Positions 471 through 47,788 of a DNA stretch of 64,000 nt are shown here, piece after piece (positions within the stretch are counted from its first letter, which is position 1; each line of letters begins with the position of its first letter). A model generated the notes under the pieces. The model did no database searches, had not been told where the DNA came from, and was given only the letters and a program-made list of their open reading frames with translations. This stretch comes from Norana najaformis (lineage: Eukaryota; Annelida; Clitellata; Crassiclitellata; Hormogastridae), in assembly GCA_964023275.1 (NCBI GenBank), contig OZ029917.1:31262005-31326004 (forward strand). Reading direction: 5' to 3'. A program made the translations under genes and the position numbers.

Positions 471-1568
471 CTGTCCCTTCGTCCGTCGATACGAAGTCCG
501 ACTCATCAGGCATGTCCGTGCGTTTGGCCGAGTAGGGAGGATGTGAGTCACAGGGTCAGAGATAAGGAGAAGAGATGGAGACAAACAGATAAACAGACTT
601 ATAGACATATAGAGATAGACAGAAACAGAGACAAGACACAAAAGGAGACGGAAGAAGGATAGCATTGAAACGAGGAAGAAATCAAGAAGAAACGAAGAAG
701 AGGAGAAAGAATAACTGAGGAAGAAACGGAGAAGAATGAGAGCAAGAATGACTGAAAGAGAGGAAAGATAAAGAGAAGAAGAAAAGGATGGATCTGTCGA
801 AGCAGAGACGCGGAATGCCATAGCAAGGGAATCTCTGCGACCAGAATTTCCCTCGAGGTTCTTGATTCTTTGAAACTAAGGCACATTGTGTCCGTTGAAT
901 TATGATGTCATCCAAACAGTTGATTTTTCTACCAAGTTCTTAGATGCTGAATTCACTGACCTGATTTCCCGCAAAATCTTCTTCAGATGACCTGTTCATT
1001 TCTGGCTGATTTCAAAGACGTATTTATTTTGTTCCAAAGTGACTTTTCGCTGAGTCATAGGTCACTTTAGACTTCATTTCCAAGTGACTTGCCCTAGTCT
1101 CAATACAACTTACTATTGATTTGAAGGTGATTTCCACATCTCACCAAACTGATTATTATACGATTATCAGTTTATTTCAAGACTGATTGTTTTCAGTCTG
1201 ATTTTAAAATCTCTCGAGCATGATTTCAAACCAATTTTTATTTGAAAAAATAAGTTGTTCTGCTGACGGCACCGGGACACTTTTTCTTTTGGCGTCTTTC
1301 CCCTGTATCCAAGCGTCTTCTTTGGGGCGATTTTACAAACTCGGGGAATGAAAAAAGTAAAGAAACACATTGTCTTTCTTCCTTTTTCATTATATTTAGA
1401 TCCAGAATATATCTCAACTTTCTGTCTAATTCGTTTACTTTACTTTCAACCTGCCCGTTCCAATACATCTTTCTAAGTGATCGGACAGGATTAAATCAGC
1501 TCTGGTTTAAAGCGTGACCCTTCCAGCTATTGGCGGAAAAACATTTGTTAGACCGATATTAATCTTAC
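471..1568. other. No recognisable gene; purine-rich tract, then unique AT-rich DNA
   Basis: From 545 to 790 the plus strand is purine-rich (GAAGAA, GAGACA words). From 840 to 1568 it is ordinary AT-rich sequence. The next exon of the minus-strand gene that ends at 1569 should lie here or beyond the left edge. I looked for a Cys-x2-Gly-aromatic-x-Cys segment behind an acceptor site and did not find one. Confidence 0.5.
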
Positions 1569-1815
1569 CAAAAATGTGTAGCAAAAGTGTGGATGATGTA
1601 TTCGTCATCGCCAGATGGCAGTCGTGAGCTTGGAGTGATGTGTTTACAGCGAAACTGGTTCGAAACCTGCTCTTTTGAGGCATCGCGAAGTGATCCGTAG
1701 AGTCGTTCTCCTGATTCGTCGACGATGTAGCGAAAGCGTCCAGCCAAATCGCGCCATGTCACCCCCATCACCCAATCAGGAAAATGACAAGATGGCGGCG
1801 GCCACCCGGAATTAT
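1569..1815 (-). CDS. Exon F of DUF7042-7045-type secreted protein (DUF7045-like part)
   Basis: Internal exon of 247 bp on the minus strand. The acceptor is a T-rich run ending in CTAG at 1816-1819, and the donor is GTAAGA starting at 1568. It begins with two bases (AT) that complete a Gly/Asp codon left open by the exon at 4327, giving Asp, and it ends with two bases (TG). The frame encodes a segment containing SCHFPDWVMGVTWRDLAG and later SNQFRCKHI and EYIIHTFATHF. Cys-x-Phe-Pro-x-Trp followed by Trp-x2-Leu, then a later Cys, is the arrangement I know from the DUF7045-like part of these invertebrate proteins, usually extracellular. The molecular function of the family is unknown. No stop occurs, so the protein continues into exons to the left that were not found. 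Confidence 0.8.
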
Positions 1816-1960
1816 CTAGAAAATTTAAAAAAAAACATTTCATGCTTTAAACAATCGTAGGCTAACTTTAGTCTCCACAAATTGTGACGCAACCAAATAT
1901 TCATATTTTTCTCCCAGCTCTCGAGAGCTGGTTAGCATCATAAATACATGTTCTCGTACT

Positions 1961-2023
1961 TGATTTGTCCGCATTAAGGAATGATTTGTCCGCATTAAGG
2001 AATGATTTGTCCGCATTAAGGAA
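1961..2023. repeat. 21-bp tandem repeat, 3 perfect copies
   Basis: The unit TGATTTGTCCGCATTAAGGAA occurs three times head to tail at 1961-1981, 1982-2002 and 2003-2023, with no differences between copies. Confidence 0.98.
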
Positions 2024-3788
2024 TTTACCTCAGCACCGGCTGCTTTGAGCTGTCGTGTATCAGAACGCTTTCTACTTGCCCTCTTCTTTACATCCTTTAT
2101 ACAACACCCTGCTGAGCGATCAGAGAACTGCCATCCGTAGGCTGACGACGCTCAACTTCTGATTTCATTTCACGCCTACTCCTTTCCTCTAACTTCTCTC
2201 ACCTATGTTTGGAGGCGTACAGACTTGGCTAACAATCAATAACCTTTAATCGAACCCATCATAAACCGATTTTCGTCTTAAGGCATGAAGGCAGCTGCTG
2301 CACAAGCAGAGCATATACTGTACAATTGGCTTACTTCTATTCACTTTGTGGCTCGGTTGTCACTCGCACTGGGGCATCACGTATTCAGGACATTTAGAAA
2401 TCAGTTCAACGTAATATGCTGTGCATGAAAGTGAATAGATTCGCAAATGACCTGAATAGGTATATGTTCAGTAAAGACATCGGAATAAAAATGGCGCTCT
2501 CTGAATTCCCGGTTTTCTCGGTTACTCGCCGGAAGCTCAAGAATTCAATGCTTGTTTCTGTCCGCTCTGCTGGTTCTGTAATGTCTTTAGGTCGGAGCCG
2601 AAGTTTCATCTTTTTCGGATTGCTTGTCATCCGTATCCTGCCATCCGGAGTCCTCTGGAGTCTCACGGATCTCGACTGGTTCTGCCAGATGGAGTCTGTG
2701 GATTCGGAATAGGTTTGCATTGGCAGAGATGATTGATTGATGCCTTGAGGTAACAGTGCTATACAGGTCTACAGAATAAATATGGAGCATCACATCGCAT
2801 CGATGTCGCTCGTTTTTCGAAATGGGGCTAAAGAGGCCAAAGGGGCTTCAGTTGAAAGAGGGCCACAGCAATCTTAGACTGAAAGATGACTTTGTTTCTT
2901 ATTAACGAATGTGAACCGCTGTATGCTTAGTAAAAGGTAGTTTTGAGTCCATGCTACATAGATCGATTAGCTTTAGTTCTATGACAATCATAATATTACT
3001 ATTGGCAATTCCCTTTAATGGCTTCCAGTTGTCGGAACAGTGAAACTGTTACGGCTTCCATTAGGCCAGAAACAATGCTGAATTGCAAAGGTGCATCTAG
3101 TTATGCGGATGTCCAACAACAGGACTTAGTCGGCAGTTTTTTTTTAGTTATTCACAGAGTCAACTGGCGATCCCCTGAAGGAAACTAGACTTTTTAAACA
3201 TGATGTTTGGTCGCTAAGAATTTACGCTGCTGCTGCGTAGCGCTGCATCACGCGTTTTATGAATACACGCCATGAAGGGATTACGTGCTGCTGTTCTAGG
3301 TAAGCTGCCGTGGAGACCTTCATGTTGCTCCTTCACATAACACGCTGACAAATTCTCTGGGCCGTGCCTTAAGCCAAAGAGAACTGTACGTAGCACAGTT
3401 AGGAGGACTATGGTAGGGTGGACAAGAGCAGAGCCTCAAATCGAGGTGCCTGAGATGACGGTTTTCTTCGATTCGATCTGAAAACATACGTTCCCTCTCA
3501 AGGACGGTCGTCTTTATGTTGTCCTCTGATGGAAAGCCATATGCCACAGCGCCACTTATTATGTATAGGGACTTTCCATGCCGGATTTTCCTCTTTCCAC
3601 TTGCCAGCATCTTTATGACCGTCAATCGCCGACAACATAAAAACCCGTTTAGCGGTCGACCGCTTATCAGAAGGAACGACCGTCGCTTGACCAAGGCCTC
3701 CAATCCTCTCCAAACTATTCTATTATTTTCACTACATCCAAGGGCTATCTATAGACCTACAGGCCCCTCACTCGAAGGCCAACACTTT

Positions 3789-4016
3789 ATGTATGTATGT
3801 ATGTACCTATGTGTCTATATATGTATGTATGCATGCATACATACATGTATGTATGTCTGTCTGTATGTTTGGCTGTGTCTGTCTGTATGTATGTATGTCT
3901 TCATATATGTATGTATGTATTATGATGAACGGATGGATTTGGCAAGTATGTATGTATGAATGTATGCATGCGTGTATGTATATACATGTACATGTGTATG
4001 CATGTATGTGTTCATG
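3789..4016. repeat. (TATG)n microsatellite, interrupted
   Basis: ATGT/TATG tetranucleotide tract with interruptions such as TGTCTGTC and GCATGCATAC, plus a short non-repeat gap near 3920-3945. Apparent Tyr/Met/Cys-rich frames are repeat artefacts. Confidence 0.95.
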
Positions 4017-4326
4017 TGGTATTCATAATTATACAGTTTGCTGGATAATTATGTTTCATTTCAAAAAGCCGTTTCTTTATTTTGTCTTCGATGGATGGGG
4101 GGGGGGGGGTTGAACTGTAAATCACTCGACTTGTGGCGGTTGTTGTGTCGCTCTTGTTCTATTTTTCGTTCGATCAATTCTCGCCAAATCTAACAAAACC
4201 TTCGAAAGAATTTGCGCCGAGATCGTATTACATCTGCCGTCTTCGTCACTTATTATTCGAATTGCAATGCAACTGTGTTTGGTACTCGTTGTACTGCGTT
4301 GTGTATTTTGCGTTGCAAGAACATAC

Positions 4327-4423
4327 CTTCGGTGAATTCGAGCAGAAAGGGACCGTCTTTGGCTGTACGAAGACCTCGACACGTGGCATCGGCGCTCATT
4401 GCCAGCGACACTTCGTTGCCATA
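4327..4423 (-). CDS. Exon E of DUF7042-7045-type secreted protein
   Basis: 97-bp minus-strand exon. The acceptor ends ATCACCAG at 4424, and the donor CGAAG/GTATGT has its GT at 4326-4325. It starts in phase 0, matching the phase-0 end of the exon at 5249, and ends with a single G that pairs with AT of the exon at 1815. The 32 full codons include VSLAMSADATCRGLRTAKDG. The core Ser-x-Asp-Ala-Thr-Cys-x-Gly-Leu is the most family-specific motif of this group; related proteins carry it about 20 residues after the RYRCF motif found in the preceding exon. The exon is too short to be seen as an isolated ORF. Confidence 0.85.
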
Positions 4424-5248
4424 CTGGTGATATTTCTAGGCACAGCACAGACAGACTGCGCTATAGTATGCTCCTCGTGATACTTTTAGATGCAAAGAAA
4501 CTAGCTGAGTTTGCTCCGCTGGTTATGGCTCTATTAACAATTTAGAAACTTATTTGGCCAAATTGGTGATATATATATATTTGCACAAAAGTCAAACAGT
4601 AATGTGGCCGTGCTGGCAGCGTCGGCGTCATCATCATCATCTTCTTCTTTTTCCTCCTCCTCCTCTTCTTCTACGGCTACTGTTTCTCCTCTCACACTCA
4701 CACTACCACTTAACATCTAATGCATCTTATCTAAAGCTTTATCGTGAGAATTGAACCGGTTTTTACCTAAATTCAGCCAGTAGATTATTTTTGACTGCTT
4801 TTGCTCAATTGAATAAATTAAGTTGAAAATGTATTCTACTGTCAGCATCGGACTACTGTATTCATTCGTTGGCTAAGCTTTAAAAATTAAACATTGCGGA
4901 CCTACTACTTACTTAATGACCCTTCCAATAATTAATAAGAGTTTTCTGGACTATAATTATGTGGTTTTACGCCTTTAAAAGACGCCTTAAGTTATGATGT
5001 TCTAATTTCTTGGGGTTTCGTTGGATAAGCTGGTGCAATATTTCACTCTTAACGGGCGTTGAGAGAGATTTTGTGCCGGGAGCTTGTCTTTGTTTGATCG
5101 TCATGTCTTATTGTTCTGTGTAGCGTTAAGACGAGAGAGAGAGAGAGTGAGAAGGTGAGAGAAAGAGAGAGACAGACAGACAGACAGAGCGGCATAGAGA
5201 GACAGAAATTTAGTGAGAGACGTCGGAAGAGGCGTCCGAAGCACTTAC
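4424..5248 (-). other. Intron between exons D and E (825 bp)
   Basis: AT-rich with a short (TCATCA)/(TCC) tract near 4630-4670 and a GA/CAGA tract around 5133-5220 close to the upstream exon. Nothing else recognised. Confidence 0.75.
5133..5220. repeat. GA / GACA microsatellite
   Basis: GAGAGAGAG and GACAGACAGACAGA runs separated by short non-repeat words, inside the intron just downstream (minus sense) of exon D. Confidence 0.9.
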
Positions 5249-5358
5249 AAAGCATCGGTATCTGTCGTCCTTTGCATCGGAATCCATTCCTGTCAGTCGG
5301 CTGTAAAGATAAGTTTCGGATCCATCTTTCCAACTGGCCAGACATTCAAAGTCCAAAT
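5249..5358 (-). CDS. Exon D of DUF7042-7045-type secreted protein
   Basis: 110-bp minus-strand exon. The acceptor has a pyrimidine-rich run ending TGTTGCAG (AG at 5360-5359), and the donor is TTT/GTAAGT with GT at 5248-5247. It opens with AT, completing G|AT (Asp) with the exon at 6152. Its 36 codons read LDFECLASWKDGSETYLYS followed by a linker and DDRYRCF. Cys-Leu-Ala-x-Trp-Lys-Asp-Gly-Ser and Arg-Tyr-Arg-Cys-Phe are hallmark motifs of the DUF7042/7043 part of this protein group. It ends exactly at a codon boundary, as exon E requires. Confidence 0.88.
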
Positions 5359-5865
5359 CTGCAACAGGCACAAGCAGCAGCGATCAACGTCTAAATGAGA
5401 AGACGGACAGAGCTCAGCAATCTCTGCTGATCATCAGAGACCAGGACTTAATGGAAATCCATTTGAAAGCCAGTTATCATGAACGCAGCCATCGCCTTCG
5501 CCTCAGCCGCCTCCGCCGCCGCCGCCGCAGGGGCTGTGCGTAGATTTCTTGCGAAGCAGGAACGCGGAATCATCTGCAGAGGCGATCTTTCCAGTGCGGC
5601 TGTCTTCTCTATTCGGCAAATTGATGCAGCTATAATGATTTTATGTAGGAAAACATTTTCATTTGCAGCTGCTTACGTTCGGTGTAGCGTTCGGTGATCG
5701 CCCCAATAACATCAGCAGCCCTTGGGCGAAGCAATTTCATGGAAACATTGATGGGGATATTTTTATTTCTGACTGAACTCCTGTTTGTGGGAAATCATTA
5801 CATTATATAAACATCACAGTCGACGATGAGGTACGACAAAGCAACTCATATCAAGTCAGATCCTT

Positions 5866-5941
5866 TCGGTTAAGCTAGGGTAAACTAAGGTCAGGTTAGG
5901 CCAAGTTAGGTCAGGTTAGGTTAAGTCAGGTCAGGTCAGAC
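5866..5941. repeat. Degenerate AGGTCAGGTT decamer-like repeat
   Basis: About seven imperfect copies of AGGTTAGGTC/AGGTCAGGTT words in the 793-bp intron between exons C and D. Confidence 0.8.
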
Positions 5942-6151
5942 AAATGCCTATGTGGAATGCAACCCTCATGACATTGACTTTCTCAATATTTTCACTTTGC
6001 CCCATTTCTTATTATTCTTTGTCATCACTTCTTTCTACTTCCCACTGCGTTTTACCTCACCAACTCACCTTAGCGCCAGTTGACCTAGGAGTCGATTACT
6101 TCATTCTGATCTGAGCTTAGCGGATAGCAGCGCATGTCATGGCGTACATAC

Positions 6152-6325
6152 CCTGGCCGTTGTAGAGCGCTGCAACTTCGCAGTGTTTGAACTGGAGTCT
6201 GTACTTGGACGGACTGGCGCACGGCTGGGCATAGGAGGCGTCGGAGTCACAGAAGCCGTGCGATAGGTCGTTGTATTTGAAGTGATATGCCTCTTGGAAT
6301 GGACACCGAATCGGAACAGACGGCT
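6152..6325 (-). CDS. Exon C of DUF7042-7045-type secreted protein (DUF7042-like part)
   Basis: 174-bp minus-strand exon. The acceptor is GGATGATAG (AG at 6327-6326) after a TTG-rich run, and the donor is CAGG/GTATGT with GT at 6151-6150. It starts with AG (completing G|AG, Glu, with the exon at 9191) and ends with a single G. The 57 codons hold PIRCPFQEAYHFKYNDLSHG, then three further cysteines and YRLQFKHC. Arg-Cys-Pro-Phe-x4-Tyr-x-Phe-x-Tyr, then Cys, Cys and Leu-x-Phe-x2-Cys at these spacings is the DUF7042 signature as I know it. All four cysteines fall where disulfide partners are expected in the family. Confidence 0.88.
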
Positions 6326-7062
6326 CTATCATCCAACCACAACAACAACAACCTTTAATATAAATCCTTCTATATTATCTGCGTCACATCCGTTTATCAC
6401 AATCACTACCATCTTCGTTATCATGAGTAAAGTCATTAATATGATTAGAATCAGAGTCAGTGCCGTTTATGTCGACGATATTTATGAAGACGAGTTCCCT
6501 GCAAACATAGAACACGATATGGCAACGCAATCTTCTGCTCATCCACTTCGATAGAAGCATATTTCGTTTCATTACGATACTTGTTCTGTCTACGACGTGA
6601 AACTGAGGCGATCGTAGTCTGATTGATTTCAATGGAAATGTTCGCTTCTTTACATGAGTACCAATTTGAAGACGCCTTCTTCAAAGCGAGGGGTTCTCGG
6701 ACGCAGCAGCGCCACATGCATCCTTCGAAGGGGCAAACATCGGGTGGCCAGGCATCGGCATCGGCGGGGGCGAGGGCGGGGGCGGCGGCAGCGGGCACTG
6801 ACCTGGATTCATGCGTCCGATGAGATCAGCCGAGGGTCGGTCCATTTCTTAGCGTCGTGTCATTTTCTTCGGCATTTGCAATGATTGATGAAAAATTGAC
6901 CGATCGTTGGACACAACGCCCGATAAAACCCAATCACGTTCTCGCTAAATTAAATTTGACAGGGCGTCTGACAGCGCCATCCAGGGCGCATAACAGGCCC
7001 CGCAGTCCGCTCCCTACCCCTCGGCCACACGCAGCGCCCTTCCATCCAACAGCTGTCCAACT

Positions 7063-7065
7063 GCT

Positions 7066-7096
<31 letters not shown>

Positions 7097-7127
7097 ACGG
7101 CGAAGATGATCATAATGATGATGCCGC

Positions 7128-7173
<46 letters not shown>

Positions 7174-7266
7174 ACAGGTGACGATAATAATGACGATGAC
7201 GATGATAATGACAACGATGATGATAATGATCATGATAATATTCATCATCATGATAATGATGATGAA
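7063..7266. repeat. (ATG)n / (GAT)n trinucleotide microsatellite
   Basis: GATGATGAT runs with CTG, ACG and AAT interruptions. The His- or Met-rich frames across it on either strand are low-complexity artefacts. Confidence 0.95.
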
Positions 7267-7703
7267 AACAACGAAGCCAATGCGGAATTAGTGTTGTTGA
7301 GCCGTGTGTCCTACGTTCTAAAGAAGAGTGTCTGCTAACAGACCACACTAATGTGGTTAGAGCAGCGGTAGACACCAGTTGTCTGATAAGTAATCGAACA
7401 CATTCGGGGTGGTCTTGATAGATAGATACTTTGGCATGGACTTTCATAGCAATCAGACAAAATTATCTGCTTCAGCTTTTATTTAGCGCCGTGCGAATTG
7501 TGATGTCTACGAGTGTTGTATATCCACAGAAGTGTCTGCTGGTAGCGTTGATGATAGTGGAGACGGGTAGGAGGCCAAGACAAGGGCCGTCGTCTCAGGC
7601 GAACAGGACGTGATGCTATGCAGAATCATAATTCCTTCAATTCAGCCGATTTCGCGTCAGACTCTGGACTCAGCGGCTGATTTATTTAGCCTTCGTGTAT
7701 CGC

Positions 7704-7726
7704 CAGAGAGAGAGAGAGAGATAGAG

Positions 7727-7771
<45 letters not shown>

Positions 7772-7795
7772 GAGAAAGGGAAAGAGAGAGAGGAA
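7704..7795. repeat. (GA)n microsatellite
   Basis: Nearly uninterrupted GAGAGA tract decaying into GAAAGAGAAAGG at its right end. Confidence 0.95.
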
Positions 7796-7864
7796 GTAAG
7801 ATATAGATGCCAAATACAGCGCATCTTATTCAAAAACGGACTGAGAAAACAACAAGTCCAAATT

Positions 7865-7979
7865 CGTCATTCACCATTCACTTGATTTGTCATTCACCAT
7901 TCACTTGATTCGTCATTCACCATTCACTTGATTCGTCATTCACCATTCACTTCATCGTCAATCACCGTGTACTTGATTC
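7865..7979. repeat. 23-bp minisatellite, about 5 copies
   Basis: Unit CGTCATTCACCATTCACTT plus GATT. Copies at 7865, 7888, 7911 and 7934 are nearly identical; a fifth from about 7956 is diverged (CGTCAATCACCGTGTACTTG). Confidence 0.93.
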
Positions 7980-8104
7980 GAGCGCATTTCACAGGATTCC
8001 TTTTTAAGTCTAAGTTTCAGCTGATTTTACTTTAGCGTTCTTCCCCACACGTCCGGTATATAATCGTTTAAGATTAGCTGATACAATTGTGGCTTTCCTA
8101 CAGC

Positions 8105-8165
8105 GTTGGAGCCACAGGAAGTTCGAACCTGCCCGGGCGCAGAGAACTTGAAGAAGAAGGTCTGC
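8105..8165 (+). mobile_element. 3' terminal fragment of the retrotransposon seen at 18.15-19.03 kb
   Basis: The segment GTTCGAACCTGCCCGGGCGC followed by AGAGAACTTGAAGAAGAAGG aligns with the 3' end of the element near 18965-19025 (GTTTGAACCTGCCTGAGGGC then AGAGAACCAGAAGATGATGA), ending in a GAA/GATGAA tail. Only the last 60 bp or so are present, a typical 5'-truncated copy. Confidence 0.65.
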
Positions 8166-8959
8166 AGGGAAGTTCATCTGTGATGTGGGTGAGGCTCGTG
8201 AACAGCATCGTGAATTGTGCGATTCTTCTTCAGTTCCAAGTCGTAGTTCAAGTGTTCACATTAAGTGCGTTCACTCACACAGAAACTTTCAATTTGATTA
8301 TTACTACATATCCACATATTACTTACTTGTTCAAAGGTTGCTCTCAGGAGTCTAGAGAATTAGAACTGACGCTAATTTTCAATAAACACGAAGTCACAGG
8401 CTTCTGGAATTCCATTAGTACGTAGCTCAGTTCTCCAGTTTTCCCTAATTTGCCTGAACACATGATACACTTTACCCTTCTTTATGAACCCCTATGCCTA
8501 CCAAATCACCTTAGCAAAATCTATCGCCATTGAAAATGTCGCACTATGTTAGATTCGCACATTTAATGAGCTACTACGATTAGCGATCAGTTATGAGTTT
8601 ACAGCTTGAGATATTCTCATAAGCATCGCCGTAGGCCTGCAGTGGTGGTGTTCTGCAAAAGGCGACTTTAATTTAACTAAACGTTGCTTACAATTTCTCA
8701 CATTTTCATAATTTCACGTGGATCAAATGTTGTGATTTACAACTGCAAGAATCGCACTAAACTCGGAATGCAGACTCGCGCAACCGCATGGGCCTGAATA
8801 TCAAGACTTCTCTGATTTCCATCAAATTGTAGCAGCAATGTCCTGTGGGATCTTATCCGATGAGCAGCTGTGGCCCAGTGCATACAGAAATCTTTCCAAT
8901 TCAAAGTAAGGCGAAATGGAGAGAAAACGTGCTCTGCTTGTTATAAACCGAACCTGATC

Positions 8960-9045
8960 CTTTTGCGCGGCTCCTCTGAGGGCGCTATACAAATGTCCGG
9001 TTTATGATATCCCATCACACCACATCACATTTCAATACGTTACAT
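8960..9045 (+). mobile_element. LINE 3'-end fragment with CATCACA-type tail
   Basis: Contains GAGGGCGCTATACAAATGTC followed by a CATCACACCACATCACAT tail. GGCGCTATA-AAATGTC is the 3'-terminal motif seen in several LINE families of this window. No coding part is kept. Confidence 0.5.
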
Positions 9046-9190
9046 CAGAACAATGCGCACTGGTTCAGGTAACTTTTTGTGTGAAAGGAATTTCTCAAAA
9101 TAGTTTATTCCGAACGGAATATTAGTAACGACAAGAATAATGATATAACGATAAGCCATTGCAATTGAGAAAAGAACTTGCTTATCTTAC

Positions 9191-9249
9191 CCCTGACGAG
9201 TGTGTAAAGAGGAGTCTCGACTCGAATCTGGCCACAGACCATTTTCAAA
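9191..9249 (-). CDS. Exon B of DUF7042-7045-type secreted protein
   Basis: 59-bp minus-strand microexon. The acceptor is CATCTCCTTCCAG (AG at 9251-9250), and the donor is GGG/GTAAGA with GT at 9190-9189. The first base T completes AG|T (Ser) with the exon at 17871. Then come 19 codons, LKMVCGQIRVETPLYTLVR, and a final G. Cys-x2-Ile-x4-Pro-Leu-Tyr-x-Leu-x-Arg just ahead of the Cys-Pro-Phe motif of exon C is the expected linker between the first domain and the DUF7042 part. Its phases fit on both sides, which argues strongly that it is real despite its size. Confidence 0.78.
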
Positions 9250-9919
9250 CTGGAAGGAGATGTACAGAAACCTAGCAAACACAGCAGAAGCAAGACTTAG
9301 ACTCACTTGATAATAGTTCGCACAGATTAAAGTCTGCTATGTTTGTAAAGGTTAACTTAACTAAGCTCGGTACTGAGAAGCGAAGAGAAATAGAAAATAT
9401 GAAAGCGAAGGAAAAAGAGACAAATATTAATATTGCAATTAATAAGCTCTTACAAGTACAAATTTAAGAAAGGAAAGAAATGGCGATAACAAGAGAAAAA
9501 TAGAAGTATTACGTGAAAATAGATGAAATATTAGAGTGGGAGACTAAGAAAACGGAAAGAAACACAAGCAAAGACAGAAGATAAAGGGAGAAGAGGATAA
9601 CGAGTTAAAAACCCGAGCGAAGATTAAGACAACACACGGCAGATGTAGATAACATAACACTAGACGAGAAGTTGGGAAGAGTCGACTCAGGCGAAATACA
9701 GACTTCGGGCGATTATAGCAAGCTATTCGCGAGACACAGAGTGGAAATGACTTTGAAGTTGATTACGTTTGATTTGAATGCTCACTTTCTTTGTACTGGA
9801 TTAGGTTTTTGTGTTGACGAAGAAGCAGCAGACAATGAAAGCAGTTCTGTTCCCTAAACAAAAACAGTGCAAAGTTGTGATCGTCTGATTCGAAGTGCGT
9901 TTAATAATTTATCTACCTT

Positions 9920-10304
9920 CGATGGCGTAACCAGTATTTCGGAGCCCGGATCGAGTGATTGCAATCCCCTCCACAATAACAATTTTTAATTTTATAAAAA
10001 TATCAATTTAGAGACACATCATGTGTTAGACATAATCGATGAGGGAATATGATAACATTTAGCAAACAGTCAAACAAAACTTTTTAGCCTTGATAGCTGC
10101 AAAATTATTGAGAACCTCGCCGAAATTGATGGAATCGACTACTTCATTCTCATAAAAAACAGCAAGGTTTGTTAGTTTTTCTTGTGACACTGTAGACTGC
10201 AAATCAGATTTAATAAGTTCTATTTTGCTGAAAGAACGTTCAAGACATTGATCATCCATTTTCATATGCAGAGTTCTAGATCGGATTATTTTCTCTCTTT
10301 ACCA
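9920..10304 (-). pseudogene. hAT transposase C-terminal fragment (ZMYM1-like/DUF4371 type)
   Basis: A minus-strand frame from about 10304 down to the stop at 10059 encodes LERSFSKIELIKSDLQST, then VSQEKLTNLAVFYENEV and FGEVLNNFAAIKAKKF. This is the C-terminal hAT dimerisation region in which Glu-Arg-Ser-Phe-Ser-Lys, Ser-Gln-Glu-Arg/Lys-Leu and the final Phe-Ala-x2-Lys-Ala-Lys are conserved. Everything upstream (DDE core, N-terminal zinc fingers) is absent or unreadable, so this is a dead copy. At 9922-9934 the plus strand reads ATGGCGTAACCAG, resembling a decayed CAGTGGCG-type hAT terminus, which would mark the 3' end of the element. Confidence 0.75.
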
Positions 10305-11399
10305 GGAAGTTGCTAAATGAAACAGAAATTCGGTTTGGCCATGCGCATGCATCTTGCAAGGCTTCCTGATCTATACTTCCATCATCAACCCGAGTAAGCA
10401 CTTCATCCTACTACTGCGTAGGAGTCAAAGCCGCGCTAACGTCTTGATTAGTACTTTCATAGCTTACAGTCTCATTTTAAAGAAATCGTGGTACTTCTAG
10501 GCTTAGATGCATCAGGTTATCACACTCCTCTCCTCTAGTTATACTGACCGCTGAAACTGCTGTAGCACGCTGGACTCTGTCTTGGTCATTTGAAACTGCT
10601 GAAGAATTATTGCCTGATTCCAGCAGAATTGCTATTTGTGAATGCTATTCTTGCGTCTCTCTGTCTGTATATCTGCCTGTATGCCTGTCTTTGTATCTGT
10701 CTGCATGAACCATTTACTTTGTGTTGAACGTAGCTGCATTGCATAAGTACCTTGTTCGTTATCGTTTTTCTGTTTTTGCTTGCAGTATCTTCATTCTTAG
10801 TCTCAAAGCAACTGGACGTGAATCAATGTTCAGCCTGTAGTTGTGCGTTTCTTCAGACTTCTTCTGTCCGGTCGACGGCAGACATTAAGGAGAGACGGAG
10901 ATTCGGTTGCTTTGTTTCGTGGCCAAGATTAAGACGGTTCATTGGCCTACTAGACGACGATAAATCACGATCACATCTAGTATCCTACACGTGCCTCATA
11001 TTTTATTAACTATAATCACACAACTTAACCAAATTCGCCTAAACGTGGGTTTCTGGTTGATGTCTTCCGCCAATCGAATGGTAGGTCGCCTCGTAAATTC
11101 TACACCGCTTTCCTTTCTGTGGCATGAAAATAATTGACGATAAACGAGTTTTGACGCCGAAGGGAGAATTCATTGGCAACCGGTGCCGCTGCCGTCGTCT
11201 GCAGCGGTTGTTCGGACGGTCCGACGAATGATCGCATTTCGCTTCGGATGCTAAGTTTATGCACCTCATAACTTCTGACGATTCAGAACTCTTGCTTTAA
11301 GACGCACCTGCAGATTGTATGACTGTTTTAGTTCTGCGATATATTCATGCGAGTTTTAGATGTTTTTTGAATGCATCTAGGCATTCACTGTGCATGTAG

Positions 11400-11610
11400 G
11401 GTATCCGAACACATGAACGAATGTATGTATATATGCATGTTTTTATGTAGTTATGCATGGGTGTGTGTATTTATGTATGTACGCATGCATGCATGTTTTC
11501 ATATATGTATTTATTTACGGATGTATGTATGCATGCATGTATTTATGTATATGTATATCTGTATGTATGCGTGTTTGTATGTATGTAAGCATGTATGTGT
11601 ATATGCATGT
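11400..11610. repeat. (TATG)n microsatellite, interrupted
   Basis: TATGTATG/GCATGCATG words over about 200 bp inside the long intron. Confidence 0.93.
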
Positions 11611-11951
11611 GTGAAACTCCTCTGAAGCGTGGTCTAAATGTTGAAGACCCATCTAATCCTTCAATCAGTCTACCTGTCTGTCTATATCCTTCTAAACTGT
11701 ACCCTTCCTCCTCCTGCCTCTATTCTGTCTCGCTGTCTTTCTTCCGGCCTCCGTAGGCCACCTGCCTTCATGTTCGTCGACCTGTCTTCCTGCATGGTTA
11801 TGGCCAAATCAGTCTGTCTACCTGCCTGCCTGCCAACCACGAAGGGGCCCCTTAAGCTGTCAGTAACATGCCCAGGTTGCGTGTATGTCTTGCTGCCTGC
11901 CCTGTTTCCTCTTCGCCTAGGGGAACGTAGACATTTCCTCGGCTGGTCTGT

Positions 11952-12111
11952 CGGTCGGTCGGTCGGTCGGTCGGTCGGTAGGTAGGTAGGTAGGTAGGTA
12001 GGTAGGTAGGTAGGTAGGTAGGTAGGTAGGTAGGTAGGTAGGTAGGTAGGTAGGTAGGTAGGTAGGTAGGTAGGTAGGTAGGTAGGTAGGTAGGTAGGTA
12101 GGTAGGTAGGT
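11952..12111. repeat. Compound (GGTC)n-(GGTA)n microsatellite
   Basis: About seven GGTC units pass abruptly into about 33 perfect GGTA units. The change is a single clean C-to-A switch at about 11979-11980. Frames across it (Tyr-Leu-Pro-Thr repeats on the minus strand) are artefacts. Confidence 0.98.
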
Positions 12112-12749
12112 CTGTCTTGTACGTATACTGACGTGAATTGCTTTCAAAGTCTGTTGTAATGAGAATCGCAGAAACCATAAAACGACGCAATTAAGTCACC
12201 CATTCGCACCGACCAATAGCTCGCTCACTTGGCCAAAAGAAATTTATATGGCGCCAGTTTGTCTACGGATCATTGGGCCGAAGGATCATGCTGAAGTCCA
12301 GCGCACTCGAAACCTATTTCGACGAACTCGCTTCGTAAGACGACGACGCATCGCGAGATTTCAATTTGCAGCCACGCATCGCTGCGTTTTATGGCCGAAG
12401 TTCATGCGCTGGTAGCGTAAGATAAGTTAACCTTAGATTTATTATGCGACTTTATAGTAATATGCCTTTGATTGAAGAGTCTGTTGATGAAGTGTGATAA
12501 GTGCGATCCTGCAACAGCGCAGTCTGTTCACTCATGCCTGCTATAGAGAAGACGCTGGTCGTTTCAAATTGCGTATTGAGACGAGAACTGTAGGCGCAGA
12601 GTTGATCGTCCAACACGTTAGTCAGTAAGGCGATAGGGAAATAGGAGAGGAGAGAAGATAACATAGTGTTCGAAGGATGACAATTTGATTTGCAAAGACA
12701 GCGGCGGCACTTATCATTCATAAGTGCCATCAGAATGACAAACGCACGA

Positions 12750-12778
12750 CTCGGGTCTCGGGTCTCGGGTCTCGGGTC
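12750..12778. repeat. 7-bp CTCGGGT tandem repeat, about 4 copies
   Basis: CTCGGGTCTCGGGTCTCGGG continues to 12778. A short perfect minisatellite. Confidence 0.9.
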
Positions 12779-12859
12779 ATGAGATGCGATGTAAGTCTCA
12801 CAGGAAGCGATCGAAATGGTATTCATAAAGATCACAGCTGGTCAACAATTATATCATAG

Positions 12860-12921
12860 ACACACTCACATTCACACACACTCTCTCTCACTCCCTCTCT
12901 TTCTCTTTCTCTCTCTCTCTC

Positions 12922-12994
<73 letters not shown>

Positions 12995-12995
12995 C
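12860..12995. repeat. (CT)n plus (CTAT)n microsatellite
   Basis: CACA and CTCTCT tracts, longest pure CT run about 12929-12976, ending in CTATCTATCTATCTAT. Confidence 0.95.
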
Positions 12996-13397
12996 ATATA
13001 ATACATAATATATGTATAGCAAGCATAGGTACTGGTCATTCTATAATACACTTCGTTACTCGTATAATATTGTAAGAGAGTGAGTGAGCAAAAGTAGTGA
13101 AACGATGGTCAAGGGACCCCGTCGCTGGTTGGCGTGGGATGTGGCTGGAAGTGTAGAGAGGGTGAATGATCGATTGATGTGTCTGCTTCTCTGACAACCA
13201 GTTCATCTTCTGACATCGAAAGCAGATACATCGCCATCGTCGTCGTCGTCTTCTTCTTCTTCTAGGGATCATTCGATTGCCGAAAGGTTAAGACCGATCT
13301 GGCTCAGTTACGATAAGAGAGGCACGAAAACACTTGGCCCAGAAACCACAGTGTTTTTTTGTCTCTCTACTCTGCTGATGTCTGCTTCTGTGCATGT

Positions 13398-13491
13398 TTG
13401 TATGTAAGTATGTATATATGTATGTAAGTATGTATGTATGTAGGTATGCATGTATGTATGTATGCATGTATGCCTGCCTGCCTGCCTGCCT

Positions 13492-13588
<97 letters not shown>
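13398..13588. repeat. Compound (TATG)n-(CCTG)n microsatellite
   Basis: TATG words to about 13471, then about 29 CCTG units with one TCCC interruption at 13491-13494. Like the GGTC/GGTA tract, it changes register-preservingly from one tetranucleotide to another. Confidence 0.97.
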
Positions 13589-15239
13589 ATTGACTCTCCT
13601 TTAACTTGCATGTCTATTAATGTCTGCATTACGTCTGGCTGTGTATGCGTGCCTCTGTATTTCATGTCAGTAGAGCTGCGTGTTTTAACAGTCTGCGTGT
13701 CTGCGTGTCTTCTGTTCCTTTTGTCTCTCTTTGTGTCCGTGCGTCTTTCTTTCTCGTTCCGTCGATTTATATGTAGGACTGTAGCGCCTTCTTATCTCTG
13801 ATTATCGCTGTCATAATTTTCATATCATCTTAAAACAAAGTCAAGCTTCGTATCATATTGATAGGTTGGAAAAGGCTCTATATAAAGCTACAGAAATGAA
13901 TACAACGTATTAGGCTACAATAGTATCAGATTATGATGGCTCTCATCACAAAACAACATGTGTATGTGTACCAAACGATTTGAAAATACTAATTCAGGGC
14001 GTCTAAATTTTATTCAAATGCACACATCCTTTAGGTTTTTGTCTCGAATGATTTAAGTAGCATGATCGAAATTCATCATTTGGAAAGTGACAACAAAGAA
14101 TAGCGAAATGGCGCTGAATAAATCTTCGCTGAATATAACTTGCAATTCTGTATTTCCGCCAGATGCAACGTTGAAATCAGCTTTCTGAGAAACCGATACC
14201 CGTTGTTCAAACCAAGTCTAAATCTATGATCGCGCAAGACACTTATCTTGTAAGCAGGCTTCAAGATAGTCTGTGCAATCGCAATCGCAAATTCATATAG
14301 CTTCTGTTCGAATGAAAATCCTCAGAGGGGAAAAGAAACACACGCAGAAGAGTGTGGTTTATAAATTAACCAGCGAAAATTGTCTAGCTGTTGGCCTCAG
14401 CGAGTTTACTCAGGAAATCTGAATCCGACGAGACTGACAGTTAGTGTCTGATGATTTGTTGGTGGTTAATCTCAGCTTCATTGTCTTCAGACGATGAATA
14501 GGCCATAGATAGACACATACAGACTCAATCTGCACCGCTTTCAGTGACATTCGAGGAGACGAAATGACAGTTTTATATCCAGCTTTAAGCACCTTAAGTT
14601 AAGTTTCCTCTCGAGCAGTCGCATAAAGACCAGTTATTTAAGACTAATTCGAATTAAATTTCATTTCATTATTGTGAGATTCCTGCTAAATAGTCAGCTT
14701 AGCCTATATAATTAGCTGCCCTTGCCTCGACCAATAGTTGTTTACTAGATAAGGTCGGACATAAAACACGTCATTAGTAACATAAACAAAGTGTACTGAA
14801 GTGAGCGCACCATCTACCAACATTGGAAACAAGTGGCCCTGTGTCTACTACGAAAGGATATCAGTTGCTTGCGCAGTCTTGCGGAAGAGCGATACTGGTA
14901 AACTGTTCTTCTCAAGGGAACCAGGCTCTTGGACATTGGTCGATGCATCACAGCTAGAAGCATCTGCAGTCAATTGAGGAAGCAGAGGAGGAGCAGGAGA
15001 ACCAATAGGTAGACGGCTAATTATTAATAAAATTAATAGAATGCAAGTAATTATATTGCACGAATACACGATCAACTGCCTTCAAACACCAGACAACAAA
15101 ACGTGTTGAACTAACAATTAATTAGTTTGCTAATTTATTAGATATGGCCTAATAGATAATAATACATTGTCTTCAGTACAATAATGTATAATACTTAGAT
15201 CTGCACACATTCCTTTCCATTTTTAGGTTAAGTATATGT

Positions 15240-15420
15240 ACATGCAATGTATGTATGTGTGTATTTACGTGTGGATGTATCTAGACACTTACAATAGCGC
15301 TTTTAAGTACCTCCACAAAAGGTGCCACCCTGAATGATATTAAAATCATTAAGAACAAAAAAGGTAGTCAATAAGGAAAGAATGCTCAGAAAACTAGAAG
15401 AGCCACCACTGGCGAGCTCC
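15240..15420 (-). mobile_element. LINE 3'-end fragment with ATAC-type tail
   Basis: The minus strand reads TTTTGTGGAGGTACTTAAAA then GCGCTATTGTAAGTG and an ATACACACATACATACAT tail. The same terminal sequence occurs on the plus strand at 28697-28727 (TTTTGTGAGGTACTTAAAAG, then GCGCTATG and CATA repeats). This pair defines a LINE family whose tail is CATA-like. The 5' boundary is uncertain and may extend to about 15680. Confidence 0.6.
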
Positions 15421-15694
15421 CGCAGATACGCAGAACCCAACCAACCAGATCTGATAATAGACACCATGTTCAGAGTTCCTGGACGCATCGAGAAAGAGAA
15501 GCGACGACTGGCGACAAGGCTTGCGTGACACGAACCCGAATGCCAAGCAGTTCCTCACAGATGATGCAAGATGCGGCATCCGCTGATCCTTCAGTCACCA
15601 TGTTCGTGGAGCCGACCAACTAACTGGTCGTAGAGCGTCTCTCCAGTAGAACGGTCAGCACCGATCCAAGGACCATTGGGCTTTCTAACTGGAG

Positions 15695-15780
15695 ATTTAT
15701 TGTATTGTATTTGATAACTTATATAGCGCTTCTACCAGAACAAACTACTCATAGGCGCAGCATGAGAACCCCGGGGAAAT
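15695..15780 (-). mobile_element. LINE 3'-end fragment with AATAC tail
   Basis: On the minus strand, GGTAGAAGCGCTATATAAGT is followed by TATCAAATACAATACAAT. This is the GCGCTATATAA motif next to a pentanucleotide tail, a pattern shared with the other LINE ends here. No coding remains. Confidence 0.45.
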
Positions 15781-15789
15781 AAGAACATC

Positions 15790-15903
15790 TTTATTATTTG
15801 TATTATTTGACAGTGGTCTCACTGGTTCAGGTCGGGAGCGCCTCTGATGAGTCTATTCTTGAAGTGGCGCTTTATAAATGTCAGATTACAATTACAATTA
15901 CAA
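15790..15903 (+). mobile_element. 3' fragment of the LINE subfamily found at 48.57-49.52 kb
   Basis: From TATTATTTGACAGTGGTCTC through GAGTCTATTCTTGAAGTGGC, GCTTTATAAATGTCAGATTA and a CAATTA-repeat tail, this matches the reverse complement of 48573-48690 almost base for base. Only the 3'UTR is present. Confidence 0.88.
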
Positions 15904-17404
15904 TCTTTAAACAACGAGCTGACTGAGCTCTATCACCAACAGTTACCCTTGCACAAAACGATAGCGGAAGTCCATTCCATAGAGTTTGACACTGGCCCGC
16001 TAGTAATCTAAAACTCCTCAGAGCGGACGAGTTCACTGGCGATAACAAACGTCCGGCATATCTCCATCAAAAACACTCAGAAACGACGACATAAAGCGAG
16101 AGAAAACTCCAATAACGCATAGTTGGTAACATTACATGTCCGAACGAAGAAACATTTTGAGCAACATCCTCATGTGGCCAACTTATTGATCAAAAACAAC
16201 GCGCTACAAAAACATTCGGCCATCTTGGATACTTACGCCAAGGTTTGGCGTATATATGTGCGTATGTATTTCTGTATGTATATCTGTATGTATGTAAGCA
16301 TGTATGTATAGATGCACATATTATGTTACTTTGCCTGAGAAATCCCTGCAAAGTCGGAAAATATCAAGACTGGGTTTGATATTGCACTAGATTGTATTGG
16401 AACTGCTGAATGATCAGATGAAAACCGCATGTTTCTATCACGTTTAGCTGCTTTAGTTACTTTTGAGAAATCGCAAGTTAAAGTTTGCCTGAACTATGAC
16501 CCAACCTAAGTCTCTGTATCTAGGGTGCGTGAATGAATATAGTAAATTGGGGCGTATTCATTCGCCCCTGAGGCTGCGATCAACGAAACCTCAATAAAAA
16601 CTGGTTAAAACGAATATTTACATGACTTGGTCATTTGCATAATAATCGATGCACTCGACTTCAAATTAGGGCACCAAGGAGACATGTTAAATTTAGTTTT
16701 TTGTGGCAGGGTATCATAAAAAAAATTGAAAATAAAATACTTAGACTGGAAACTTGAGATAACGACTTACAGTCTGACAGCTAATACAACAATGAATATA
16801 AATATGAATATAAATATGAATATAAATATAATAAGAACCCATTGTATGCCTACTCCTTTCTGAGCGAATTTATCGCAAATTAACTTTTCCGACTTTGTGA
16901 CGCTTTTCTCAAGCACAGTTACATATGCCTATAAATATATAACTCTAACCTAATTATGTTGTGTGTTTTTCTACGTGTGTGCGTGTGTGTGCGTTTGTGT
17001 GTTTGTGTGTGTGGTCGGTTCAATTATGAAGGTCACCAATGCGAGCAGACGCTTTAATACGATGTTGAAATGCATGCAACTGGACACATGTTAATACGGT
17101 TGATGGAGCTGATTGTAATATTGCTGTCGTTCGTGTAGTTGCTGTTAAAACAACAGCCGACCTTTGCGCTGCTAATGAGCGCCCCCTCCCTGGCCAATAC
17201 AGCGTCGATGCTACCATCAGCTGTCGATGAGAGGCTGAATAATGGCCTGACTGATTGCTCTGTGGCAGTGTTTCAGCCGAAAGATCAGGCGCCAAGCTGT
17301 CTATAGGGCTATTGTTTGCAGATGCGCTTAATAATGTACTCTAACTTAACTTATCGTATATCTTACTCTATCTTACCTTAACTCAACTTACTTTATCTTA
17401 CCTG
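15904..17404. other. Intronic sequence, nothing recognised apart from short repeats
   Basis: Contains a short TATG tract (16255-16310), a 12-bp ATGAATATAAAT repeat (16795-16833) and a GT tract (16974-17012). A minus frame at 17020-17295 is open but shows no domain I know. Confidence 0.6.
16795..16833. repeat. 12-bp ATGAATATAAAT repeat, about 3 copies
   Basis: ATGAATATAAATATGAATAT continues in register to 16833. Confidence 0.9.
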
Positions 17405-17578
17405 AAATAGCCCTGATGTTTCTCACCTGAGCATTCCTGATGTAGACTACCTGTCCTTATTTAAAGCGGCTTAAGACCTATTTGCATTGTCTTTCTTCTG
17501 TTGCTGATCGCTGTGACTCACCTCGTTCAGCTGATGGACATACGGCATGTTAACAAATGCTTGCTTACTTACTTAATC
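17405..17578 (+). mobile_element. LINE 3'-end fragment with CTTA tail (family also at 43.76-44.05 kb)
   Basis: The reverse complement aligns with 43790-43945: CATTTGTTAACATGCCGTAT, GTCCATCAGCTGAACGAGG, GTGAGTCACAGC and CAAATAGGTCTTAAG all have counterparts there. It ends in GCTTACTTACTTA. Confidence 0.75.
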
Positions 17579-17870
17579 TGTCGCATATCTAACACAGTTA
17601 GATAGTTTACATAGCCTTAACTTATTTTATCTGACCTTAGCTTGACTGAGCTGACAGGACCTGACCAGACATGACCCTAGGAGTCATCTGCCATGCTACA
17701 GAATGCCAGCCATTAAGCTGGATTTGTGCCAGACACAATCATTCATTTCCATGACAGGTCAATAACAGCAAATGGGGCTCTGGCGCCACCAGACAATCGG
17801 TCGGCCACTACAGGGCGGCCAATGCCCAGCCGCAGATGCATCGAAGGGTGAGATAAAGACAATGGCGCAC

Positions 17871-18012
17871 CTGTTATCGAACAGGTAGTAGTCACGGTCA
17901 TGTTCGATGCAGATGCCTTTGGTTGTTATGACGTTGTCGCGGATGATGATCTCACCGAGGCCACTCTGGTAGTAACGACCTCTCCATTCCTGAGAAAAAC
18001 GACACGGCAGAC
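17871..18012 (-). CDS. Exon A of DUF7042-7045-type secreted protein (DUF7044-like part)
   Basis: 142-bp minus-strand exon. The acceptor is an excellent CTTTGCTTTTTTCAG (AG at 18014-18013), and the donor AACAG/GTGCGC has its GT at 17870-17869. It begins with GT, so the preceding exon must end with one base of a codon, and it ends with AG. The 46 codons include PCRFSQEWRGRYYQSGLGEI, then the motif TTKGICIEHDRDYYLFDN. Cys-x-Phe-x2-x-Trp-x-Gly-x-Tyr/Trp-x-Gln-Ser-Gly, then Lys-Gly-x-Cys, is the DUF7044 signature that normally follows the signal peptide directly. The signal-peptide exon is not identified. With the five downstream exons it yields 829 bp of continuous frame. Confidence 0.88.
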
Positions 18013-21590: not shown

Positions 21591-24390
21591 ACCAAACGAC
21601 AAATGGACCAAAAAACAAATGGACCCAACGACCAATGGAAAAATTAACGAATGGACCAAACGGCGAATGAATCAAACAACAAATGGTCCAAACGACGAAT
21701 GGACCAAACGACGAATGGACCAAACGACGAATGGACCAAACAAAAATGGGCCAAACGACGAATGGACCAAACAACAAATGGACAAAACGATGAATGGACC
21801 AAACAACAGATGGACCAAACGACGAATGGACCAAACAACAAATGAACCAAACGACGAATGGACCAAACAACAAATGGACCAAGCAACAAATGGGCCAAAC
21901 GACGAATGGAAAAATGGCGACTGGATCAAACGACGACTGGACCAAACAACAAATGGACCCAACGACGAATGGAAAAATTAACGAATGGACCAAACAAAAA
22001 ATGGGCCAAACGACGAATGGACCAAACAACAAATGGACCAAACGATGAATGGACCAAACAACAGATGGACCAAACGACAAATGGACCAAACAACAGGTGG
22101 ACCAAACGACGAATGAACCAAACAACAAATGAACCAAACGACGAATGGACCAAACAACAAATGGACCAAGCAACAAATGGGCCAAACGACGAATGGAAAA
22201 ATGACGAATGGACCAAACGACGAATGGACCAAACGACGAATGGAAAAATGACGAATGGACCAAACGACGAATGGACCAAACAACAAACGGACCAAACGAC
22301 GAATGGACCAAACAACAAATGGGCCAAACGACGAATGGACCAAACAACAAATGGGCCAAACGACGAATGGAAAAATGACGACTGGATCAAACGACGACTG
22401 GACCAAACAACAAATGGACCCAACGACCAATGGAAAAATTAAAGAATGGACCAAACGACAAATGGACCAAACAACGAATGGAAAAATGAAAAATGGACCA
22501 AACGACGAATGGACCAAACGACGACTGAAACAAACAACAAATGGGCCAAACAACAAATGGACCAAGCAACAAATGGGCCAAACGACGAATGGAAAAATGA
22601 CGAATGGACCAAACGACGAATGGACCAAACGACGAATGGAAAAATGACGAATGGACCAAACGACGAATGGACCAAACAACAAACGGACCAAACGACGAAT
22701 GAAAAAATGGCGACTGGATCAAACGACGACTGAACCAAACAACAAATGGACCAAACGACGAATGGACCAAACAACAAATGGGCCAAACGACGAATGGAAA
22801 AATGACGACTGGATCAAACGACGACTGGACCAAACAACAAATGGACCAAACGACGAATGAAAAAATGGCGACTGGATCAAACGACGACTGAACCAAACAA
22901 CAAATGGACCAAACGACGAATGGACCAAACAACAAATGGACCAAACGACGAATCGACCAAAAAACAAATGGACCAAACGACGAATGGATCAAACAACAAA
23001 TGGGCCAAACGACGAATGGAAAAATGACGACTGGATCAAACGACGACTGGACCAAACAACAAATGGACCCAACGACGAATGGAAAAATTAAAGAATGGAC
23101 CAAACGACAAATGGACCAAACAACGAATGGAAAAATGACAAATGGACCAAACGACGAATGGACCAAACGACGACTGAACCAAACAACAAATGGGCCAAAC
23201 AACAAATAGACCAAACAACAAATGGACCCAACGACGAATTGAAAAATTAACGAATGGACCAAATAACAAATGGACCGAACAACAAATGGACCCAACGGCG
23301 AATGGAAAAATTAACGAATGGACCAAACAACAAATAGACCAAACAACAAATGGACCCAACGACTAATGGAAAAATTAACGAATGGACCAAACAACAAATA
23401 GACCAAGCAACAAATGGGCCAAACGACGAATGGAAAAATGACGAATGGACCAAACGACGAATGGACCAAACGACGAATGGAAAAATGACGAATGGACCAA
23501 ACGACGAATGGACCAAACAACAAACGGACCAAACGACGAATGAAAAAATGGCGACTGGATCAAACGACGACTGAACCAAACAACAAATGGACCAAACGAC
23601 GAATGGACCAAACAACAAACGGACCAAACGACGAATGGACCAAACAACAAATGGACCAAACGACGAATGGACCAAACAACAAATGGGCCAAACGACGAAT
23701 GGAAAAATGACGACTGGATCAAACGACGACTGGACCAAACAACAAATGGACCCAACGACCAATGGAAAAATTAAAGAATGGACCAAACAACAAATAGACC
23801 AAACAACAAATGGACCCAACGACTAATGGAAAAATTAACGAATGGACTAAACAACAAATGGACCGAACGTCAAATCGACCAAACAACAAATCGATCAGAA
23901 GAGAAATTGTCCAAGTCCACCAAACAACGACAAGTCGACGAATCGACGAAAGGACCAAACGACAAATGGACCCAACGACGAATGGAAAAATTAACGAATG
24001 GACCAAACGTCGAATAGACCAAACAACAAATGGACCAAACGACGAATCGACCAAACGACAAATGGACCCAACGACGAATGGAAAAATGACGAATGGACCA
24101 AACGACGAATGGACCAAACAACAAATAGACCAAACAACAAATGGACCGAACGTCAAATCGAGCAAAAGAGAAATGGTCCAAGTCCACCAAACAACGACAA
24201 GTCGACGAATCGACGAAAGGACCAAATGACAAATATGCCAAACGAGAAATTGACCAAACGATGAATTGACTAAACGACAAATGGATCAAACGAGAAATGA
24301 ACAAATCGACAAAAGGACCAAACGTCAAATGCTAAACCGAGTAAAGGACCAAACAAGTAATGTACCAAACGAGAAATGGACCAATCAAAG
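21591..24390. repeat. 2.8-kb satellite of 16-bp ACCAAACGACGAATGG units
   Basis: About 170 units of ACCAAACGACGAATGG alternate with ACCAAACAACAAATGG, interrupted by longer variants containing GGAAAAATGACG or GGAAAAATTAACG. Longer blocks recur: GGATCAAACGACGACTGG follows GAAAAATGRCGACT at about 21908, 22370, 22690, 22800, 22860, 23028, 23540 and 23702, and GTCCAAGTCCACCAAACAAC recurs at about 23909 and 24176. No 16-mer variant contains a stop in any frame, so frames stay open for up to 319 codons on the minus strand and 194 on the plus strand. These encode 16-residue repeats and are a by-product of the satellite. The array decays from about 24230. Confidence 0.97.
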
Positions 24391-47612: not shown

Positions 47613-47788
47613 GTCTCCATGTATGTCTCTGTGTCTCTGTTTCTACCTCTATGCCTGTCTATGTTTAAGGAGCCTCAGTTGATGAGCGTCACCATATTTA
47701 TGATGTTCCTTTCTGTGTTGGTTCTTCTCCCACGAAGTGTTCAACCTCGCAGCGTCTTTGATGCCAAGACGTCTCTGCCTCAAACAGT

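Follow-up and report, generated by a model that had tools for sequence, protein, structure and literature searches.

How large is a minus-strand DUF7042-7045 gene in the annelid Norana najaformis, and what might its repeated domains do?

What gene lies on the minus strand in the left part of a 64,000-nucleotide (nt) stretch of the Norana najaformis genome, how far does it reach, and what might its protein do? The stretch, hereafter the window, belongs to an assembly of 608 Mb in 17 contigs (GCA_964023275.1), with window base 1 at position 31262005 and the last base at 31326004 of contig OZ029917.1 (C5); we also examined ten flanks of 10 kb, six to the left and four to the right. A preliminary description made from the letters alone had proposed six minus-strand exons, and these do lie where it put them, each with AG before and GT after it, with split-codon phases that agree as claimed and a join of 829 nt that is open over 275 codons. 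The gene is real, larger than first described, apparently intact and intron-rich: the actual exon count is at least 12, seven of them inside the window, and the gene extends over about 30 kb or more, so that the earlier estimate of at least 16.4 kb was true but too low. It adds one member to the described, functionally blank DUF7042-7045 family, and both this membership and the domain order DUF7044-7042-7043-7045 had been recognized correctly.

The twelve exons are given here from 5' to 3' along the gene, with negative coordinates for those left of the window, and with DUF7044 and DUF7043 called A domains and DUF7042 and DUF7045 called B domains:

17871..18012, minus strand: exon of 142 nt (phase 1 in, 2 out) that opens the first A domain (DUF7044) with LPCRFSQEW..GICIEH.., identified by GT-AG borders and the Pfam match to DUF7044
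9767..9853, minus strand: exon of 87 nt (phase 2 in, 2 out), absent from the earlier join, encoding EQNCFHCLLLLRQHKNLIQYKESEHSNQ, the second half of DUF7044
9191..9249, minus strand: exon of 59 nt (phase 2 in, 1 out), encoding LKMVCGQIRVETPLYTLVR, which closes the first A domain
6152..6325, minus strand: exon of 174 nt (phase 1 in, 1 out), encoding RCPFQEAYHFKYND.., the first half of the first B domain (DUF7042)
5249..5358, minus strand: exon of 110 nt (phase 1 in, 0 out), encoding LDFECLASWKDGS..RYRCF, within DUF7042
4327..4435, minus strand: exon of 109 nt (97 nt if counted from the acceptor at 4423; phase 0 in, 1 out), encoding KYHQ YGNEVSLAMSADATCRGL.., the end of DUF7042
1569..1815, minus strand: exon of 247 nt (phase 1 in, 2 out), encoding CHFPDWVMGVTWRDLAGR.., in the second A domain (DUF7043)
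-3248 to -3312 (C5 31258692-31258756), minus strand: exon placed by splice sites and phases
-4243 to -4314 (C5 31257690-31257761), minus strand: exon placed by phases, CAG/GTAAGT borders and the conserved cysteine that it restores
-6840 to -6992 (C5 31255012-31255164), minus strand: exon placed by splice sites and phases
-8462 to -8553 (C5 31253451-31253542), minus strand: exon placed by splice sites and phases
-11867 to -11981 (C5 31250023-31250137), minus strand: exon placed by splice sites and phases

The additional exons left of the window came from a tblastn search with the annelid protein P0001 (Lamellibrachia) and were placed by their splice sites and phases; the one at -4243 was missed by tblastn and brings a small Pfam gain (DUF7043 from 64.5 to 66.2 bits). 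The resulting model encodes 474 residues and runs from 18012 to -11981, a span of 29,994 bases.

Measured against the curated Pfam cut-off of 27 bits, the twelve-exon model matches DUF7042 (PF23069) at 111.1 bits, DUF7044 (PF23071) exceeds the cut-off across most of the profile once the 87-nt exon is included, DUF7043 (PF23070) climbs from 20.7 bits in the six-exon join to 66.2 with the left exons (best stretch 234-349, in the second A domain), and DUF7045 (PF23073) gathers a whole-protein score of 40.3 bits from two stretches, the best of which lies on the DUF7042 region. The profile search suggested earlier for the six-exon join bears that join out in part, with DUF7042 (89.3 bits, E 2.4e-25) and DUF7044 (27.8 bits) over the cut-off and DUF7045 (25.7 bits) and DUF7043 (20.7 bits) below it.

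Three protein searches returned 2, 10 and 40 matches at E <= 0.001, together 50 distinct proteins, and those with a named organism come from annelids (Lamellibrachia, Paralvinella), molluscs (bivalves, gastropods, a chiton, cephalopods) and crustaceans; where names are given they read hypothetical, uncharacterised, unnamed or DUF-containing protein. The annelid, mollusc and crustacean proteins share their domain order, motifs and most cysteines with this gene, at local-alignment identities of 32% for Paralvinella LSH36_411g02016, 45% for Lamellibrachia LSAT2_007797 and 32% for Mytilus LOC127727229; unlike those relatives, this gene is one of many genomic copies and, as read, lacks one cysteine of its first A domain. 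No insect or vertebrate member stood among the named rows of these searches, whose reach depends on shared words and on length and which include some nameless rows, so this is no proof of absence. A search of one literature library found no paper naming DUF7042-7045, two of their accessions or the homologue locus names that were searched, and would miss members that go under other names; the presumed family names LP06548p, PTHR22255 and IPR055470 gave no literature match either, and a conjecture that Drosophila snsl is a member was dropped, being neither supported nor excluded.

A point that is new here is that a single unit seems to be present twice among the four DUFs, as (DUF7044-DUF7042)-(DUF7043-DUF7045), or A1-B1-A2-B2. 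Within the in-window model of 308 residues, which carries both corrections discussed below (the added exon and the acceptor at 4435), the DUF7043 profile falls on the DUF7044 region (residues 2-85) with 44.5 bits, and the DUF7045 profile on the DUF7042 region with 29.4 bits. Domain alignments for hhalign were cut from the 42-row alignment A3, which holds 42 of the 50 proteins (P0002, P0043 and P0045-P0050 excluded), and with these rows B1-B2 scores 95% (E 3.9e-8, 94 columns), A1-A2 scores 59% (E 9.4e-5) over only 29 columns, and the four A-B comparisons all stay below 2%; with 12 rows, B1-B2 still scores 92% and A1-A2 only 4.9%. The exons of the two B domains are also cut alike, at 174, 110 and 109 nt in B1 and 153, 92 and 115 nt in B2, both with phases 1-1, 1-0 and 0-1, and both with cuts before CLASW/CLVTW and after YRCF/LNCY, whereas the A-domain phases agree in part only (1-2, 2-2, 2-1 in A1; 1-2, 2-1, 1-1 in A2). 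From the profile comparisons and the B-domain exon phases we conclude that an A-B unit was duplicated, a relation that is firm for B1-B2 and likely for A1-A2.

What fold might these domains share? AlphaFold predicts almost entirely beta structure for two relatives, and in fold comparisons one domain matches the lipocalin fold clearly and the other domains less so, with nitrophorin 4, Tp0751 (the best), CRBP1 and streptavidin as single-domain matches. PCNA, DPP8, TbpB and factor H binding protein also appeared, with weak scores that we took as general beta-sheet similarity. Each domain is predicted, again a new point, to be a small calycin-like beta-barrel. The lipocalin/calycin superfamily shares this predicted single-domain fold, and the present family differs from it in joining four predicted barrels of two alternating types. 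The Pfam lipocalin profile gave no match up to E 10; most homologue rows show, by eye, a G.W motif where the first A domain begins, and this gene has GRY there. The earlier label of orphan domains was accordingly too strong, since the four DUFs come down to two pairs of relatives whose predicted fold can be recognised.

The location of the protein is suggested by its relatives. Among the 41 of 50 homologues that are long (at least 480 residues), simple hydropathy counts, as distinct from a trained predictor, place a hydrophobic segment ahead of the first CxF[PS] in 30 and another within the last 60 residues in 38, with the protein ending at most 12 residues later in 34; each of these long homologues has 23 to 32 cysteines. 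The description of the protein as secreted is therefore supported through homologues and not through this gene itself, whose first exon was not found. The short hydrophobic C-terminal end of most of these homologues has the look of a signal for a glycosylphosphatidylinositol (GPI) anchor. As a separate observation, 31 of the 33 proteins P0004, P0005 and P0013-P0043 (molluscs where named) end in arginine past the hydrophobic tail, as does annelid P0001.

A structural counterpart is offered by vertebrate APCDD1 (PDB 8e0p, 8e0r, 8e0w), which its structural report presents as a transmembrane Wnt inhibitor with an ectodomain of two apposed barrels, one of them with lipid, and for which the same authors found only weak structural relatives, lipocalins among them (PMC10193966). 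It has two barrels against the four predicted here, and a transmembrane span and a small cytoplasmic domain, where most long homologues of the present family show the short hydrophobic end.

Taking these observations together, the reading that we favour, with middling confidence, is an extracellular, disulphide-rich protein of four linked barrels that acts as a surface-bound binder of small hydrophobic ligands. A signal peptide and the C-terminal hydrophobic tail, both seen in homologues, would bring the protein to the cell surface, probably on a GPI anchor; the barrel interiors, by analogy with APCDD1, may accommodate an acyl chain or another small ligand of hydrophobic kind; and the protein could then capture, buffer or hand over lipidic ligands at the surface, as proposed for the lipid-binding barrel of APCDD1. 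For this copy we infer both the surface anchoring and the class of ligand. The analogy to APCDD1 is structural and itself weak, and comes without detected sequence similarity: the APCDDC domain was not among the Pfam families matched up to E 10 or, for the twelve-exon model, E 1, and a profile search of PDB sequences returned no APCDD1 chain up to E 10. If the four DUFs are two duplicated barrel types, function becomes testable, for instance by asking whether there is lipid inside.

Copies elsewhere in the genome bear on both the integrity and the role of the gene. A whole-genome search with DUF7042 gave at least 54 matches, at least 33 of them over the cut-off, at about 25 dispersed loci on 12 of the 17 contigs (a count that uses DUF7042 alone, groups rows within 60 kb by eye and leaves out one row with four stops). 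We compared the paralogue exons of 18 of 20 rows, the window's own included and L029 and L030 excluded, and found a phase-1 GT exactly 51 codons past the CP cysteine in 17 of the 18, exon 6152..6325 among them, while in 17 of the 18 an AG of the same phase stands six to eight codons ahead of that cysteine; some donors are weak against the consensus. Across 136 pairs of 17 exons (L026 also excluded), codon positions 1, 2 and 3 differ on average at 18.0, 16.5 and 29.0 of 51 sites, the pattern expected for constrained coding sequence. A tree of 34 rows and 54 columns, which the tool flags as few, separates 17 genome copies and Paralvinella from the molluscs and crustaceans (96/100), joins the copy in the window to L028, L031 and Paralvinella (98/98), and leaves L029 outside on a very long branch. 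That copy (C6:13469187) is an intronless paralogue in its stretch, with a single open frame of 697 residues at 991-3084. It matches DUF7042 at 49.4 bits and DUF7043 at 31.6 bits, has a hydrophobic C-terminus and a start that looks like a signal peptide, and is very divergent from the other copies.

Other roles can be proposed for the same gene. The strongest competitor, though a distinctly less probable one than the lipid binder, keeps the fold but has the barrels packed, as a disulphide-braced scaffold: the protein would serve in adhesion or in an apical matrix and would bind proteins rather than lipids. The many cysteines fit such a scaffold, and Tp0751, the best fold match, reportedly has a non-canonical lipocalin fold and mediates adhesion, going by the title of its paper (PMC5040251); yet calycin barrels typically bind small ligands, and Pfam scans of the model and of the homologues scanned found no known adhesion domain. 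Less probable still, and in our view unlikely, is a protein, secreted or surface-bound, whose small ligands are of another kind (haem, pigments, metals or foreign molecules) and whose family expanded in this lineage for defence or chemoreception: it would suit the roughly 25 dispersed loci, the separate clustering of 17 loci with Paralvinella in the 54-column tree and the presence of nitrophorin 4 among the fold matches, but cysteines and length are nearly constant across the paralogue exons. Slightly more speculative is an invertebrate counterpart of APCDD1, by convergence or remote descent, in which GPI-anchored four-barrel traps, some 25 of them in annelids, would titrate acylated morphogens (Wnt, Hedgehog) at the surface.

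Returning to the exon model, the 87-nt exon at 9853-9767 is bypassed by the proposed junction 17871/9249, which is wrong or at best represents a skipped-exon form. The search for it was prompted by a stretch known in the family, CxxC...H.N..QYKES, which is absent from the six-exon join and is also present in homologues retrieved afterwards, and the exon came out top-scored among 67 cysteine-rich, phase-compatible candidates between exons 17871..18012 and 9191..9249. The family motif, written for this count after the discovery of the exon from the pattern in relatives, occurs in one of 337 open phase-compatible AG...GT stretches of 9250-17870 and, over all six frames of the 64-kb window, a single time. 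Without the exon DUF7044 scores 27.8 bits over profile positions 3-50 only; with it the match covers positions 3-90 at 62.7 bits (in-window join, 60.3; twelve-exon model, 61.0). The next exon, 9191..9249, aligns in translation with CAQIRVETPLYTLVREP of annelid P0003. As 87 is a multiple of three, omission keeps the frame, and so the six-exon join looked consistent; where a gene of some 30 kb is built from exons only 59 to 247 nt long, a whole exon can escape careful reading in this way.

Two details of this exon call for caution: its donor, GTAATC, is weak, and the cysteine just after QYKES (ESYC), nearly invariant in relatives, is absent. Its 3' end is for these reasons less sure than the other borders; a micro-exon restoring the cysteine was sought in 9776-9250, and none of 11 candidates had both a good donor and the motif. 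A shortened isoform, with the six-exon join produced alongside the full form by a frame-keeping skip, would draw on the same weak donor and on the matching phases (2 in, 2 out), but we regard it as improbable, as the skip deprives the A1 domain of its portion with CxxC and QYKES, which is kept in eight of the nine homologue rows covering that region, the ninth, P0003, looking badly predicted there.

At the junction proposed as 5249/4423 the GT-AG borders and the phase hold, and the acceptor is probably 12 nt off. A TAG lies in frame 12 nt upstream of 4423 and gives an exon start at 4435, which adds KYHQ; with it the length there equals that of Lamellibrachia P0001, Paralvinella reads KYQHYGTEM against KYHQYGNEV here, and DUF7042 rises from 89.3 bits in the six-exon join to 98.8 in the in-window join with both corrections. 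The higher score and the equal length lead us to favour a start of exon 4327..4435 at 4435 rather than 4423.

The ends of the gene were also sought. For the signal-peptide exon, scanned from 18013 to the end of the right flank, none of the best 60 of 81 candidates was convincing, many of them coming from one simple-repeat stretch near 41.6-41.9 kb, and a scan for the last exon left of -11867 to -11981 gave eight candidates, none convincing. Although these two exons and one conserved cysteine are missing, chance exons or a decayed pseudogene can be set aside as highly improbable given DUF7042 at 111.1 bits with three other families over the cut-off, the codon-position pattern of the paralogues and, with minor weight since the exons were picked for it, a chain of twelve exons without a stop.

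The remainder of the window holds repeats and remnants. Two similar-looking, reverse-transcriptase-like remnants of open reading frames lie at 44419-45396 and 48641-49537 (minus strand), the former with a weak RVT_1 match (E 0.00068) below the cut-off and the latter with no Pfam match. An array at 47788-48573, made of 49 copies of the 16-bp unit TCCAAGAATCTTGTGA and adjoining an open reading frame that by eye resembles a reverse transcriptase fragment, is probably young, as its copies match at 100%. Another 16-bp unit, ACCAAACGACGAATGG, is repeated in about 176 copies at 21591-24384 with 75% matches, in an array that is open in several frames, and a tandem array with 24- and 32-bp periods occupies 2-464, in the intron just left of exon 1569..1815.

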